From Bryobacteraceae bacterium (GTDB lineage: Bacteria > Acidobacteriota > Terriglobia > Bryobacterales > Bryobacteraceae), in assembly GCA_025929455.1 (NCBI GenBank), contig JAICMB010000202.1, positions 1 through 6,319 of the forward strand: 6,319 bases of DNA. Direction: 5' to 3'. This document shows, one piece after another, positions 1-6,272 of the stretch. The notes beneath the pieces were generated by a model. The model searched no databases, was not told the origin of the DNA, and was given only the letters and a program-made list of their open reading frames with translations. Positions within the stretch are counted from its first letter, which is position 1, and every line of letters starts with the position of its first letter. Both the position numbers and the translations under genes were made by a program.

Positions 1-776
1 ATGTCCACTACCGCCGCTCCCGGCATGTGCGCGTTGTACATCGATGCGGGTGCCAGCGCCGCGCCGATGCCCGCCACTACCAGAGCGAACGCCGACGGAA
101 AATTGTCCGTTTCGTGCACCACCACGGGACTGAACTGGCTCGCTGCGCACGCCGCGATGAGGAGATCGTAATAGGTCGGTGCAATGCGCCGCTGCGGCAG
201 AATCCATCGCTCGCTCGCCAGTTCCTGCAACGTGACACGCTGCCGCGCGGCCATGGCATGCCCCGCCGGCAGCACTGCCACGACGCCGTCGTTCCAAATC
301 GGTGCAGTGAGCAGTCCCGCCTCGTCAAGCGGCGGCGTCATGAATCCGACGTCGATGATGCCGTGACGCAACTCGTGGCTCTGCTCTTCGGGCAGAAGCT
401 CCCTCAGTTTGAAATCGACGCGCGGGAACTCACGCCGGAACGCAGGCAAAATCGCCGGCAAGACGCTGTGGACTGGAATCAGGCCGGCGCCGATCGTCAG
501 AGTCCCGCAGTCCTTGCCATCCGCCCGCCGCACCGCGCGTACTGCGCGATCGACCTGCTCTACACAGGCGCGCGCTTCGCCCAGAAAAACCCTGCCCGCA
601 TAAGTCAGCTCCACCGAGCGGCTGGTGCGGTTGAGCAGGCGCACGCCTAGCTCCTCTTCTAGCTGACGGATTTGATGGCTTAGAGGCGGTTGCGCGATAT
701 CGAGCCGTTCGGCTGCGCGCGTGAAGTTCAGTTCTTCTGCAACTGCTATGAAATACCGGAGATGGCGAAGTTCCAT
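1..776 (-). CDS. LysR-type transcriptional regulator, C-terminus cut off by the window edge
   Basis: This is a DNA-binding transcriptional regulator of the LysR family, acting in the cytoplasm, usually as a tetramer. Reading leftward from an ATG at 776-774, 258 codons stay open to the edge. The N-terminus MELRHLRYFIAVAEELNFTR is the classic LysR winged-helix start. It is followed by the helix-turn-helix (about residues 18-37, with AAERLDIAQPPLSHQIRQLE), the wing and linker helix (about 50-85), and the effector-binding domain from about residue 91 (TLTIGAG, FPRVDFKLRELL, GIIDVGFMTPPL, GIGAALAP). The family is usually 290-320 residues, so roughly 35-60 are missing. The sequence resembles the CbnR/BenM subgroup, but the effector cannot be inferred. 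An in-frame TAG (779-777) directly precedes the ATG, which fixes the start. No good Shine-Dalgarno sequence is visible. It lies 173 bp downstream of the malectin gene in the same direction. Confidence 0.93.
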   Translation of the reverse strand, partial: MELRHLRYFIAVAEELNFTRAAERLDIAQPPLSHQIRQLEEELGVRLLNRTSRSVELTYAGRVFLGEARACVEQVDRAVRAVRRADGKDCGTLTIGAGLIPVHSVLPAILPAFRREFPRVDFKLRELLPEEQSHELRHGIIDVGFMTPPLDEAGLLTAPIWNDGVVAVLPAGHAMAARQRVTLQELASERWILPQRRIAPTYYDLLIAACAASQFSPVVVHETDNFPSAFALVVAGIGAALAPASMYNAHMPGAAVVD

Positions 777-949: not shown

Positions 950-2500
950 CTACCGCGACTCGTCCACAACCTCCAGCGCGTTGATACACGCATAGTTCCT
1001 CACCGGAATAAAGCTGATGTTCAGCTTGCCTTGCGCGGTCGGCTCGATGCCGTGGAAGACTTTGACGAGCGGCCGGTTACTGCCGCCCGCTTCGCGAAAA
1101 ATATCGAAATTCTTGGTGAGCGTGGTGCCGTTGCACAGAATGTCGAACAGCCGGCTTCCCGCGCCTCCGCCGCCGGGCTGCCCGGGTCCGAACCAGGACT
1201 CCGCAGTGTGGAGTACCACGGCATAACGCCCGCGCGCGACCGGAATGCTGTAACTGACGTTGCCGAACCGCTCGCCCGCATACAGCTCGGGATCGTCGCC
1301 GCCGGCCACTGTGCGCGGCCGTGTCACCAGCATGCCGCCCTTTGCAAAACGGTCCGGTTCCCAGAACACGCCGTCGTGCGCGATATAGGAACTGTCGCGC
1401 TCCACCAGCCGGATCGGACGCATGCGCCCCGGGGCGCCGGGCGTAATTTCAATCCCCGAAACCTGCGGCAGCGCAATATTCGGCGTGAAGTTCAGGTGGA
1501 GCTTGCCATCCGGCGCCGGCGAAATGTCGCGAAACACCTTCACATCGGCTGTAGCTGAGCCCGCGTCGGCGATTATATCGAAGCTCTCCAGCAGCGGCCG
1601 GCCGTTCGCCGTCACGCCGAAAATGCGGCTGGTCTCGCCGCCCCCAACCATATTGGAATCGCCATAGAACATCTCGGCGAAGTAGAGGCGCAGCTCATAT
1701 ACTCCCGGCCGCAGCGGAATATCGTATCCAAAAGCGCCTTCGCGGCGGCTCAAAAAGAGACGCGGGTCGCGGGTACCGGCTACACGCCGGTCGTGTGACG
1801 AGCCGGCCGTACCGCCATGAAAGTAGCGATCGCCCTGCCACAAGTGACCGAACGCGTCCGTATACGAGGTGTTCGCGACGCCCGCGAGGATGCGCACGGC
1901 TCCGTTTTCAGCGGCAACGGGCGCCCCCTGCGAAGGTAGCGGTACAAGTGCCGGCGCCGGGGTGTGGCGCCATGCGGCATAACCGAGCGCGGCCGTTACC
2001 AGCACCGCCGCGCCGGTAAGCAGCCACATGCCGCGAAACCCCCGGCGCACGAGTTCAAATTCCAGCGGAGCTGTAGGGACCGGCTGCGGGCCGACAGCGG
2101 CCGGCGGAGTGGCAGGTTCAACCGTGGTGAGTGCGGTCTGCGCATGTTCTGCCGGGAGCGCCGGGTTCGGCACAAACCGCGGCGAATATTGCCCGGAAGG
2201 AATTTCGATGTGAATGGCGTGTCCGGCGCCCTGACCTTCGTAGAACTCCCGCAGCCGTTTTCTTAGGCGGTGCGCTTCCACACGCACAATCGAATCGCGC
2301 TTCTGGTCGAAACTCGCCGGGCGGCCTAGCGCCTCGATCGCGATGTTGTACTCCTTGATCGCGTTCGACTGCCCCTCAAAATATTTCCCACAGACATATA
2401 TAAGGACCTGCGCCAAGCCGGGAGCGCGCGCGAACAACCCGGAGGCGAGCAGGGCTTCTAATTCCGCCCGCTGAGCCTCAAAATCTGCGGCAATAGGCAT
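950..2500 (-). CDS. membrane-anchored regulator-like protein with two tandem malectin domains
   Basis: This 516-residue protein has a composite architecture. Residues 8-109 match an N-terminal domain I recall from Acidobacterial and proteobacterial signalling proteins (AIKEYNIAIEALGR 47-60, DSIVRVEAHRLRKRLREFY 69-87, IEIPSGQYSPRF 98-109). It looks like a DNA-binding-type domain, but that role is inferred. A Pro/Ala-rich linker (about 111-146) leads to one membrane helix (157-177), preceded by VRRGFR, which favours an N-in orientation. Then come two malectin-like carbohydrate-binding domains, about 202-353 and 361-512. Each has a Trp-Asp element (HLWQGDRYFHGG; VFWEPDRFAKGG), a GxY-x-L-xx-AE strand (GVYELRLYFAE; GRYAVVLHTAE), an SR-[IL]-F strand and a final IEI/LEV strand. 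The likely role is a one-component sensor of periplasmic sugars. ATG at 2500-2498 follows GGGGA by 3 nt. It is divergent from the TonB receptor gene. Confidence 0.85.
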   Translation of the reverse strand: MPIAADFEAQRAELEALLASGLFARAPGLAQVLIYVCGKYFEGQSNAIKEYNIAIEALGRPASFDQKRDSIVRVEAHRLRKRLREFYEGQGAGHAIHIEIPSGQYSPRFVPNPALPAEHAQTALTTVEPATPPAAVGPQPVPTAPLEFELVRRGFRGMWLLTGAAVLVTAALGYAAWRHTPAPALVPLPSQGAPVAAENGAVRILAGVANTSYTDAFGHLWQGDRYFHGGTAGSSHDRRVAGTRDPRLFLSRREGAFGYDIPLRPGVYELRLYFAEMFYGDSNMVGGGETSRIFGVTANGRPLLESFDIIADAGSATADVKVFRDISPAPDGKLHLNFTPNIALPQVSGIEITPGAPGRMRPIRLVERDSSYIAHDGVFWEPDRFAKGGMLVTRPRTVAGGDDPELYAGERFGNVSYSIPVARGRYAVVLHTAESWFGPGQPGGGGAGSRLFDILCNGTTLTKNFDIFREAGGSNRPLVKVFHGIEPTAQGKLNISFIPVRNYACINALEVVDESR

Positions 2501-2527: not shown

Positions 2528-2556
2528 AGTATACCGGAATCGGCGAGAGCCCGCAA
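2528..2556 (-). promoter_or_regulatory. candidate sigma70-type promoter of the malectin gene
   Basis: On the minus strand, TATACT (2533-2528, 5 of 6 to TATAAT) lies 17 bp from TTGCGG (2556-2551, sharing TTG with TTGACA). Transcription would start near 2521 and give a leader of about 20 nt before the ATG, with GGGGA as a Shine-Dalgarno-like element. The -35 match is weak, which fits a promoter that needs an activator. The CGTTAC elements begin about 20 bp upstream of it. Confidence 0.4.
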
Positions 2557-2574: not shown

Positions 2575-2667
2575 GTAACGGCTCGCCAAGGACGGTAACG
2601 AATGCGTTAACGCAACTGAAATAAAAAGACTTACTGCGTTAACTCTATCCGGCGTTGACCTGTTAAC
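2575..2667. promoter_or_regulatory. cluster of CGTTAAC-like elements, candidate operator
   Basis: Six related short elements lie within 93 bp. On the minus strand, CGTTAC occurs at 2580-2575 and 2600-2595. On the plus strand, CGTTAAC occurs at 2605-2611 and 2637-2643, CGTTGAC at 2653-2659 and TGTTAAC at 2661-2667. The 2605 copy sits in the perfect 12-bp palindrome TGCGTTAACGCA (2603-2614), and TGCGTTAAC recurs at 2635-2643. The starts of the four plus copies are 32, 16 and 8 bp apart, and the first two are about three helical turns apart. Repeats of this kind between divergent genes usually mark cooperative binding by one regulator. The adjacent malectin protein is the obvious candidate, by inference only. 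Confidence 0.45.
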
Positions 2668-2819: not shown

Positions 2820-5800
2820 ATGCCAACACTCGCAAAAACACTCCGTGTCGCGTCGCTGGCCTTATGGTGTCTGACGGTGGCGGCGCCGCTCGGTTTCGCG
2901 CAGTCGATTACGGGTACGTTGACGGGGACGGTCGGGGATGCGTCGGGCGCCGTGGTTCCGGGCGCCAATGTATCACTTATCAATGAGGGATCGGGTGACG
3001 AGCGCAAGACGGTCACGAACTCCGATGGGTACTTTACGATCGCGGCGGTGCCGGCCGGCACTTACACGCTGCGCATTGAGGCGCCCGGGTTCCAGAAGTA
3101 CGAGAGCAAGGGCGTGGCCTTCAACGGCTCCGATAAGCGCAACGTCAACGCCGTGATGCAGGTCGGGACGGCGGCGCAGTCGGTCGAGGTCGTTTCGGCG
3201 GTCGACATCATCACGCCCGTAGACTCCGGCGAGAAGGCCTCCACGCTCAACACCCGCGAGTTGCAGGACTTCTCCGTAGTCGGCCGCAGCGCGGCGGAGT
3301 TTATCAAGATTCTGCCGGGCATGGGCATTGCGGGCACCGGCGTCGAAAACCGGTCGAATTTTACAGGTGAAGTGATCGGCATCAACGGCAATGGCGACGC
3401 CGGAAGCCAGAGCGCCCTAAACGGCGCCTATAACGTTAACGGCCTGCCCACCAATTCGCTGGACATCACGGCCGACGGTGCGCACGTCTCCGATCCGGGC
3501 TGCAATTGCGCCACGCCCGTCAATCCGAATACCGACATGATCCAGGAAATGAAAGTCATGACGTCGAATTTCAGCGCGGAGAACTCCAAAGGTCCGGCAG
3601 TTATCAACACCATCGCGAAGGCCGGCACGCGCGACTTCCACGGAGAAGGCTATTTCTATGCACGCGATTACTCGTTGAACGCGAACGACTGGATCAACAA
3701 TCGCCTGAACGTGCCCCAACCGAAGAACAAGTACTTCTTCCCGGGCGGAAATATCGGCGGTCCGGTGCTGGTTCCCGGAACAAACTTCAACAAGAACCGC
3801 GACAAGCTGTTCTTCTTTACCGGATTCGAATATTATTTGCAGTCGCTCGATACCGGCATCGTCAACGCAACTGTTCCGACGCCCGGAATGCTCGACGGCA
3901 ATTTCAGTCCCGCGGAGTTGGCAAAACTAGGCACCATCGACGCTTCCGGCGGCGCGCCGAAACAGCTGAATAGCGCGTTGTACCCGAATGGCATTATTCC
4001 AAAGTCGCAAATTGATTCGAGCGGCCTGGCGCTGTTGAAGTTGCTACCGCAACCGAACGTCGATCCTAATCTGACGGGCGGTTACAATTTCGTGAAGGCC
4101 GTCGATTTCGACCAGAATTCGTGGCAGTGGATGAGCCGCGTGGATTACTCCATCAGCGATAACACCAAGCTGTTCGTTCGCTACAACCTGCAGAAGGAAA
4201 AGCAGCTGTTCCCCGTCGGCTTATGGTGGCGCAACGCGAACCAGGTCCCATATCCGACTCCAGTGGTGGGTAACAATCAGAGCCAGTCGGTATCGGCGGA
4301 CCTCACGCACGTGTTCAGCCCGACACTGACCAACGAGTTTGTATTCGGATATACCTACATCGATTTCCCAAACGTTTTCGAGGACCCGAGCAAGGTAGAC
4401 CGCACCAAAGTTGGATATAACAACCCGGGCCTGTTCCATAACGGCGTGACGCAGATTCCACAATTGTCGGGCGGAGGCGAGATCGCGACCATGCTGAACC
4501 CGGGCGGTTTCGAAGCAGGGGGAAGTAAAGGCCTTTTCGCGGACAAATACCTGCCGACCTTTTCCGATAACCTTTCAAAGGTGTGGGGGACGCACACGCT
4601 GAAGTTCGGCGCGTACTACGAATATGTGATCAACAACCAGCCTGCCAACACCAATTCAAACGGAGCTATTACAGAGAATGCGGCGGCGGGCAGCAATACT
4701 ATCGGGAACCAGTACGCAGACCTGCTCACCGGTCGTACGAGCTCGTATTCGGAGACAAACTACAGCAACCTGCATAACGAGGCGTACAATACGCTCGAGT
4801 TTTTCGTACAGGACAACTGGAAGGTCACGAGGCGCGTGACGCTCGAGTTGGGTATCCGCATATCGCATTTTGGACAGTGGTATGACCGGCTGGGAAACGG
4901 TTTCGCCGTCTGGGATCCATCGTTGTACAACGCTGCGGATACCGCTACGGGCGACTACACGGGTTTTACCTGGCACAAGAAGAACTCCAAGATCCCGCTA
5001 TCCGGATTTAGTTCTCCCGCGCTTTTGTTCGGACCCCGATTCGGCGTCGCTTATGACATCTTTGGTTCTGGCAAGACAGTCTTGCGAGGCGGCTGGGGGC
5101 GCTTCTACTACCACAACTCGCAGTTCACAACCGGGTTAGATGTCTCTGCCGGTCAACAGAACGTAACACTGAACAATTTGAACTTAGCCGACATTCCGAA
5201 TCAGGTAAACTTCGTTGGCGGTGTTTCAGCAGCAGGCGTAGACCCGAACGATGACAAGACCCCCTACAGCGATAGTTACAGCTTTACGATTTCGCAGCGC
5301 GTGCCGGGAGCGAGTCTGTTGGAGGTTTCCTACGTCGGAAACCAGAGCCACGATCTACTTAATACGGGAAATCTTGGCACCAACGTCAATGCCGTGCCGT
5401 ATGGCGCTTTATTCGGCATCTCGAACCCGTCCGGGCTGAGCTCGGGCGCGTATAGCGCGTACCGTCCATTTCAGATCTACGGCGACCTGGGCATCGTGCA
5501 ACACAACCTCTACCAGAACTATAATTCGTTGCAGATTACCTGGGCCAAGCAGCGCGGTCACTGGGATATCCAGGCCAACTACACGTACGGCAAGAACCTC
5601 GGTATCGTTGGCGGCGATCAGCTAAATCTCAATAACGACTACGGCCCGCTCGCGAACGACCGGCGTCACATTTTCAACGCCGCGTATTCGGTCGAGTTCG
5701 GGAATCCGGTGAAGAACAACAAATTCGCGGCCGCGGCGGTGAACGGCTGGCAGGTTTCGGGCATTACGCAGTGGCAGAGCGGAATCAACTTAGCCGCTAA

Positions 5801-6272
5801 CACCGGGAATAACTTCAACCTCAATGCGAACAATTTTGCAGTGAACGGCAATGCCATCAACGCGCGTTATATCAACGGAACGGATTCCGTGCCACTGCAG
5901 CCGATACTGACGTGTAATCCCACCGCGAACCTCGCCGCTCATCAGTTTGTGAATGCGAACTGCTTCGCGCTGCCCACCACGCCCGGAGGCAATGGGCCCA
6001 TCGTGCTGCCGGAAATATTCGGACCGGCCTACTTCGACACCGACCTGTCACTGTTCAAGAACTTCAAGATCGGTGAGTCGAAGAAGCTGCAGTTCCGCTT
6101 CTCAGCTTACAATTTCCTCAATCACGCGCTGTGGAGCTTCCGGGGCGCCGGCAACAACCTGAATTTGATCTTCGATCCCGACACGGGCAAGGTCTCTAAC
6201 CCCAACTTCGGCGTCACGACCGATAAACTGGGCCACCGCATCGTTCAGCTCGCCGTGAAGTTCTACTTCTAG
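2820..6272 (+). CDS. TonB-dependent receptor, Oar-like, with carboxypeptidase-regulatory-like domain
   Basis: This is an outer-membrane receptor of 1150 residues, complete, of the Oar-like/SusC-related type that imports large ligands with energy from TonB-ExbBD. Residues 1-27 form a signal peptide (hydrophobic core VASLALWCLTVAA, probable cleavage after GFA). Residues about 29-115 form a carboxypeptidase-regulatory-like beta-sandwich (ITGTLTGTVGDASGAVVPGA, NSDGYFTIAAVPAGTYTLRI). The plug follows at about 134-270 (LNTRELQDF, FIKILPGM, NVNGLPTNSLDITADGAHVS, MIQEMKVMTSNFSAENSKG). The rest is a beta-barrel with typical family segments (DKLFFFTGFEYY, FFVQDNWKVTRRVTLELGIR, FGPRFGVAYDIFG, NDRRHIFNAAY). 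It ends QLAVKFYF, with the terminal Phe expected for recognition by the Bam complex. Length and order fit the acidobacterial family. Unusual features are a C-N-C motif in the plug (228, 230) and two barrel cysteines (1032, 1048). The substrate is unknown; the divergent malectin protein hints at a sugar or glycan. Confidence 0.94.
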   Translation: MPTLAKTLRVASLALWCLTVAAPLGFAQSITGTLTGTVGDASGAVVPGANVSLINEGSGDERKTVTNSDGYFTIAAVPAGTYTLRIEAPGFQKYESKGVAFNGSDKRNVNAVMQVGTAAQSVEVVSAVDIITPVDSGEKASTLNTRELQDFSVVGRSAAEFIKILPGMGIAGTGVENRSNFTGEVIGINGNGDAGSQSALNGAYNVNGLPTNSLDITADGAHVSDPGCNCATPVNPNTDMIQEMKVMTSNFSAENSKGPAVINTIAKAGTRDFHGEGYFYARDYSLNANDWINNRLNVPQPKNKYFFPGGNIGGPVLVPGTNFNKNRDKLFFFTGFEYYLQSLDTGIVNATVPTPGMLDGNFSPAELAKLGTIDASGGAPKQLNSALYPNGIIPKSQIDSSGLALLKLLPQPNVDPNLTGGYNFVKAVDFDQNSWQWMSRVDYSISDNTKLFVRYNLQKEKQLFPVGLWWRNANQVPYPTPVVGNNQSQSVSADLTHVFSPTLTNEFVFGYTYIDFPNVFEDPSKVDRTKVGYNNPGLFHNGVTQIPQLSGGGEIATMLNPGGFEAGGSKGLFADKYLPTFSDNLSKVWGTHTLKFGAYYEYVINNQPANTNSNGAITENAAAGSNTIGNQYADLLTGRTSSYSETNYSNLHNEAYNTLEFFVQDNWKVTRRVTLELGIRISHFGQWYDRLGNGFAVWDPSLYNAADTATGDYTGFTWHKKNSKIPLSGFSSPALLFGPRFGVAYDIFGSGKTVLRGGWGRFYYHNSQFTTGLDVSAGQQNVTLNNLNLADIPNQVNFVGGVSAAGVDPNDDKTPYSDSYSFTISQRVPGASLLEVSYVGNQSHDLLNTGNLGTNVNAVPYGALFGISNPSGLSSGAYSAYRPFQIYGDLGIVQHNLYQNYNSLQITWAKQRGHWDIQANYTYGKNLGIVGGDQLNLNNDYGPLANDRRHIFNAAYSVEFGNPVKNNKFAAAAVNGWQVSGITQWQSGINLAANTGNNFNLNANNFAVNGNAINARYINGTDSVPLQPILTCNPTANLAAHQFVNANCFALPTTPGGNGPIVLPEIFGPAYFDTDLSLFKNFKIGESKKLQFRFSAYNFLNHALWSFRGAGNNLNLIFDPDTGKVSNPNFGVTTDKLGHRIVQLAVKFYF

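Follow-up and report, generated by a model that had tools for sequence, protein, structure and literature searches.

A predicted membrane one-component regulator with two malectin domains, paired with an outer-membrane receptor gene in Bryobacteraceae

We analysed a stretch of 6,319 nucleotides from a Bryobacteraceae bacterium (assembly GCA_025929455.1, contig JAICMB010000202.1), hereafter the window, in which the gene for a membrane protein with two malectin domains stands divergent to the gene for an outer-membrane receptor. The membrane protein is probably a ToxR/CadC-like one-component regulator that acts on CGTTAAC-type sites in the intergenic region shared by the two genes and takes its input through the malectin domains. 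The domain order, the malectin fold, the conserved gene pairing and the conserved, phased sites before both genes were all established computationally. These tandem-malectin proteins, predicted membrane regulators, form a real, conserved and hitherto uncharacterised family of soil acidobacteria.

A preliminary description of this DNA had read the protein as an N-terminal domain, a flexible linker, one membrane helix and two malectin modules, and this order was confirmed. Hydropathy was predicted to peak in a stretch from residue 158, in agreement with the helix at 157-178, and the distribution of basic residues (K/R; three in the 18 residues before the helix, one after) predicts a cytoplasmic N-terminus, which would leave the malectin part in the periplasm. 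As in ToxR and CadC, a flexible linker lies between the DNA-binding-type domain and the membrane helix (predicted local distance difference test, pLDDT, below 50 for residues 114-155). In the C-terminal modules, the match to Malectin (PF11721) scored above the cut-off and the model has the malectin fold; this assignment is strong. The same description had called the fold eukaryote-style; it is not specific to eukaryotes, as bacterial beta-glucuronidases carry it too.

The neighbouring gene, which starts 319 bases from the regulator gene, encodes a beta-barrel receptor (OMP_b-brl_4, PF25183, 489.6 bits; CarboxypepD_reg, 80.9 bits). By likeness it is of the TonB-dependent/Oar type, with no plug family listed at a Pfam E-value up to 1. 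We followed the pairing across 61 loci, namely the window (L001) and 60 regions selected by hand among the top-scoring profile rows listed (seven candidates scored per genome; some partial or second rows were skipped and G200:C19 was added out of order). A receptor gene stood divergent within 1 kb of the regulator in 43 loci and upstream on the same strand in eight (one within 1 kb, seven at 3.3-5.6 kb). No receptor was in view upstream in the remaining ten, one of them owing to the contig end, where the view extended over 1.1 to 6.9 kb (2 bases in L092); two of these ten do show a receptor piece on the downstream side, L091 one on the regulator's strand and L055 a weak one 2.8 kb away. The receptor of L083 is fragmented. 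As a comparison we took 40 unlinked control receptors, hand-picked rather than random from the upper listed rows (identity 35% or less, match beginning near the N-terminus; G086:C36, which lies beside a malectin regulator, and some others were left out). Only one of them had a gene for the N-terminal domain upstream, within up to 3 kb fetched, and that neighbour showed no malectin part by eye. Among the matches listed, relatives of the window receptor at 54-65% identity occur singly or in small numbers per genome; the majority of rows lie at 28-36%. The regulator probably controls the adjoining receptor gene. In the same-strand loci L037-L041, L043 and L046 two genes separate receptor and regulator; in L040, the only one scanned, these encode a tetratricopeptide repeat (TPR) protein and a 704-residue protein without Pfam match. 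Two loci, L047 and L054, have multihaem cytochrome c554-type genes after the receptor gene.

The loci without an upstream receptor bear on the ligand. In three of nine examined, the regulator is divergent to a glycoside hydrolase (GH) or GH42-like gene: a GH31 gene followed by a GH42-like gene in L045, a GH1 gene in L048 and a DUF4832/GH42-like gene in L086. Elsewhere the divergent neighbours are FG-GAP or FG-GAP/UnbV genes (L055, with an additional convergent GH3 gene, and L074) or an ankyrin gene (L057), and in L053 and L082 (UnbV genes) and in L091 (an amine oxidase gene) the upstream neighbour shares the regulator's strand. Among the residues that we take to be ligand contacts in animal malectin, the aromatics W436/F437 are present in domain 2 by alignment; in domain 1 the loop bearing one presumed ligand tyrosine is shortened. 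Because of the fold class and the glycoside hydrolase neighbours, we favour a glycan as the predicted ligand of the tandem. It should not be assumed, however, since plant tandem malectins of similar fold are reported not to bind the carbohydrates tested (PMC6038381). The same regulator could instead sense a protein, for example the periplasmic part of the partner receptor or another periplasmic protein, a proposal that shares everything with the favoured explanation except the ligand. We consider this rather unlikely: besides the hydrolase neighbours, species relatedness confounds the correlation, whose Spearman coefficient is higher for the N-terminus (0.59) than for the malectin part (0.31).

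The intergenic region itself (2501-2819) had been proposed as the place where the N-terminal domain binds, and comparison backs it as a candidate target, with three GTTAAC sites there and a motif that is common before relatives and rare in controls. In the window GTTAAC occurs at 2606, 2638 and 2662 (spacings of 32 and 24), and at 3435 inside the receptor gene; four copies in 6,319 bases were matched by 5 of 200 shuffles, yet three of them sit between the two genes, within 319 bases. Two motifs are prominent in the 350 bases before the regulators, CGTTAAC and a TATACT box. CGTTAAC preceded 32 of 62 regulators, against 3.1 expected from shuffles. For the comparison with controls the window was included and L092 (47 bases only) dropped; starts were taken from match positions, so that upstream regions may contain some codons. 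On this count CGTTAAC was found before 32/61 regulators (window and 60 loci), 2/40 control receptors and 0/16 TPR paralogs, and GTTAAC before 34/61, 3/40 and 0/16, at an upstream G+C of 0.54, 0.57 and 0.60, respectively. The enrichment of CGTTAAC over control receptors (Fisher 2.9e-7) persisted after alignable upstream regions had been collapsed (22/41; Fisher 1.3e-6). In the collapsed set, GTTAAC pairs within 60 bases of each other lie at distances of 7, 11, 11, 20, 20, 21, 22 (four), 23, 23, 24, 25, 31, 32, 33 (three), 43, 45, 54 and 56, a spacing with a period of 11.0 (Rayleigh about 6e-6, with the period read from the data and pairs of one region not independent).

The sites also accompany the receptor when the two genes are apart. 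In the same-strand loci, three to four GTTAAC copies lie within 430 bases upstream of the receptor in 7/7 fetched (the eighth locus begins inside the receptor, with its upstream out of range); the regulators of these seven, mostly related loci have GTTAAC in front in six cases (none in L046). Receptors of at least 40% identity with no malectin regulator known beside them (11 hand-chosen from the listed rows, a few further rows unfetched) carried sites within 400 bases in two cases, L205 and L213, from G077 and G021; the malectin regulators fetched from these two genomes had no receptor in the upstream stretch viewed. Two receptors of G002, where the regulator is also unlinked, had no sites, nor had seven receptors from genomes with a linked pair. 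The double site GTTAAC-N15..17-GTTAAC was found 15 times across 15 genomes, in 8 cases before malectin regulators, and the stricter GTTAACG-N13..15-CGTTAAC at 10 places in 237 genomes, again 8 before malectin regulators. Four of the 10 strict sites lie outside the loci used for motif discovery, two at malectin regulators of genomes that did not contribute to that discovery (L230 and L232, the latter closely resembling L217) and two away from them (L231, inside a receptor gene, and L233). The GTTAAC-type sites are candidate operators of the regulator. As for the TATACT box, 34 of its 35 occurrences on the regulator strand in the 62 upstream regions lie 12 to 45 bases before the start. It is often seen as TGNTATACT and resembles an extended -10 promoter without clear -35; a sigma-70 scan of 2400-2900 returned no promoter, though the box is conserved in place.

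The full-length structure model was poor at the N-terminus (blocks of 40-63), which is why this domain was modelled alone. The top 13 rows of the VIA list for that model are OmpR/PhoB-type DNA-binding domains (other folds missing from such lists are no evidence against those folds). Aligned with hhalign, the N-terminal family scored against Trans_reg_C well above 21 controls (alignments A5, with 43 of 84 N-terminal pieces besides the window, and A6, with 29 of 30 Trans_reg_C loci). Trans_reg_C was also the family that most N-termini matched (8 of 44 scanned at E up to 10, best E 8.7e-4; the next best family matched two), and other Pfam matches were weak, with one or two members each. Fold and profile support an OmpR/PhoB-type winged helix, as in ToxR and CadC, from which we infer DNA binding. 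Alternatively, the protein might be anchored in the membrane to bind glycans, with an N-terminus that serves structure or protein interaction and not DNA binding, the GTTAAC sites belonging to another regulator. The fold and profile comparisons make this improbable, as does the way the sites track the malectin regulator and not TPR paralogs or unlinked receptors.

Some results weigh against the winged-helix regulator and its operator. The curated cut-off of Pfam Trans_reg_C (PF00486) was not reached, with no match in the window protein itself; Foldseek of the N-terminal model against the PDB gave nothing significant; and reversed forms of the two double-site patterns occurred 16 and 23 times in our own count, so that the patterns are not over-represented in number. 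The double site is thus unusual in location, not in number. A sequence-profile search of the PDB with the N-terminus returned a sole, irrelevant match (E 0.74). The earlier proposal of a DNA-binding-type N-terminus is supported by fold and profile comparison and lacks backing from Foldseek and from Pfam on the window protein itself.

That the pairing is merely inherited gene order with no regulatory link is very improbable: an ancestral pairing is conceivable, given that the 61 sampled loci all belong to one bacterial family, but the pairing persists while the listed receptors drop from 65% to about 31% identity with that of the window (for example G086:C36), it is kept in more than one gene arrangement, and the sites are kept before both genes when these are apart.

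We propose that the cytoplasmic winged helix would bind CGTTAAC-type sites, phased by about one DNA turn, between the regulator and receptor genes, reading them on one DNA face before its own gene and that of the receptor. The flexible linker and single helix would join it to the two periplasmic malectin domains, which may bind a ligand, most likely an oligosaccharide, entering through or supplied via the partner receptor. Binding would then alter the pairing or position of the cytoplasmic domains, which presumably dimerise, and so affect how the receptor gene and the regulator's own gene are transcribed, by either activation or repression.

The family was delimited by phmmer, with 2643 matches including that of the window; the 119 other matches listed are full-length, come under names like Solibacter usitatus and Bryobacteraceae where a name is attached, and are at best annotated as a 'malectin domain' protein (alignments A1 and A3 used 31 and 52 of them). 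Profile matches were found in 199 of 200 genomes of the family of G001, many through the N-terminus alone, and by hand count at least 63 of the 200 have one match that by itself covers about 440 or more of the 518 positions. Phylum-wide, 5 of 119 genomes matched at E 1e-20: G001 itself and G294 almost end to end, three over the N-terminal part only. In G001 the same N-terminus heads one TPR protein, two PD40 propeller proteins and one protein without an assigned C-terminal part, which points to a modular sensor family. The TPR paralog L003 (G001:C77) is divergent to another CarboxypepD_reg receptor gene and is the only one of the 16 TPR paralog loci with a receptor in view (flanks of about 1.5 kb). 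L004, whose C-terminal part has no Pfam assignment, and L102, whose gene is divergent to a control receptor, both combine the N-terminal domain with what looks by eye like a membrane segment; they are possibly another sensor type. Single database proteins (P0201, P0198) that fuse the N-terminal domain to PF01048 and PF00083 may be assembly or gene-call fusions. In the open-licence literature we found no description of malectin-type membrane regulators in Acidobacteria, and the word 'malectin' is absent from the available part of PMC3174227. In the window, a LysR-type gene lies 173 bases downstream of the malectin regulator on the same strand.

Table 1. Features of the window, with positions, strand and basis of assignment.
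Feature	Position	Strand	Basis or remark
Membrane one-component regulator gene (predicted), 516 aa	950..2500	-	Open reading frame prediction and homologues
Divergent OmpR/PhoB-type winged-helix domain, residues 1-114, predicted cytoplasmic and DNA-binding	2159..2500	-	
Disordered Pro/Ala-rich linker, residues 115-156	2033..2158	-	pLDDT <50 for 114-155
Single transmembrane helix, residues 157-178	1967..2032	-	N-in by charge
Malectin domain 1, residues 199-356, predicted periplasmic	1433..1906	-	
Malectin domain 2, residues 357-516, predicted periplasmic	953..1432	-	
TATACT, candidate -10 box in the promoter of the regulator gene	2528..2533	-	33 bases before ATG
CGTTAACG, candidate operator site 1	2605..2612	.	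Motif enriched upstream of relatives
CGTTAAC, candidate operator site 2	2637..2643	.	
GTTGAC, degenerate candidate site	2654..2659	.	
GTTAAC, candidate operator site 3	2662..2667	.	
Outer-membrane beta-barrel receptor, N-terminal CarboxypepD_reg domain, predicted target	2820..6272	+	Pfam
LysR-type regulator gene, clipped by the window edge	3-776	-	PF00126 and PF03466

Acidobacteria, which abound in soil, have many such receptor genes (in 21 genomes, each with 34 candidates scored, we counted 28 to 55 receptor-matching stretches per genome), and to our knowledge little is known of how these genes are regulated. Our analysis yields a probable regulator with its predicted target and predicted operator, and with them a route to assigning ligands to receptors; it also extends the range of sensors in one-component membrane regulators by a malectin tandem. 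Membrane or periplasmic sensors that control an adjoining receptor gene are familiar from Sus regulators, hybrid two-component systems and extracytoplasmic function (ECF)-sigma/FecR; here one protein would replace the sigma/anti-sigma or hybrid two-component parts. Tentatively, and with less assurance than for the window protein, we suggest that Bryobacteraceae-type acidobacteria possess a dedicated class of membrane one-component regulators that may read periplasmic glycans through a malectin tandem similar to the cell-wall receptors of plants and act through an 11-bp-phased CGTTAAC operator on outer-membrane receptors, a solution separate from SusR, hybrid two-component and sigma/anti-sigma systems.

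CadC/ToxR-like regulators come closest: they have an OmpR/PhoB-type winged helix in the cytoplasm, a single membrane helix joined to it by a disordered linker, and a sensor in the periplasm. CadC is built from the same parts, a disordered linker among them, and its DNA-binding domain can be superimposed on PhoB (PMC5430869). The window protein differs in an N-terminal domain too divergent for Pfam Trans_reg_C, in the malectin tandem as sensor and in the linkage of its gene to that of an outer-membrane receptor. Compared with the plant CrRLK1L ectodomains (FERONIA, ANXUR1/2), it is bacterial and carries a winged-helix-type output instead of a kinase, and the packing of its two malectin domains is unmatched there, given a root-mean-square deviation of about 7 Å. 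Relative to the malectin of animals and of bacterial beta-glucuronidases, domain 1 has a shortened loop. Acidobacterial TPR/PD40 proteins share the N-terminal domain (the G001 paralogs) and end in TPR, a PD40 propeller or a part without assignment; the malectin regulators differ from the TPR paralogs in the CGTTAAC sites upstream of their genes.
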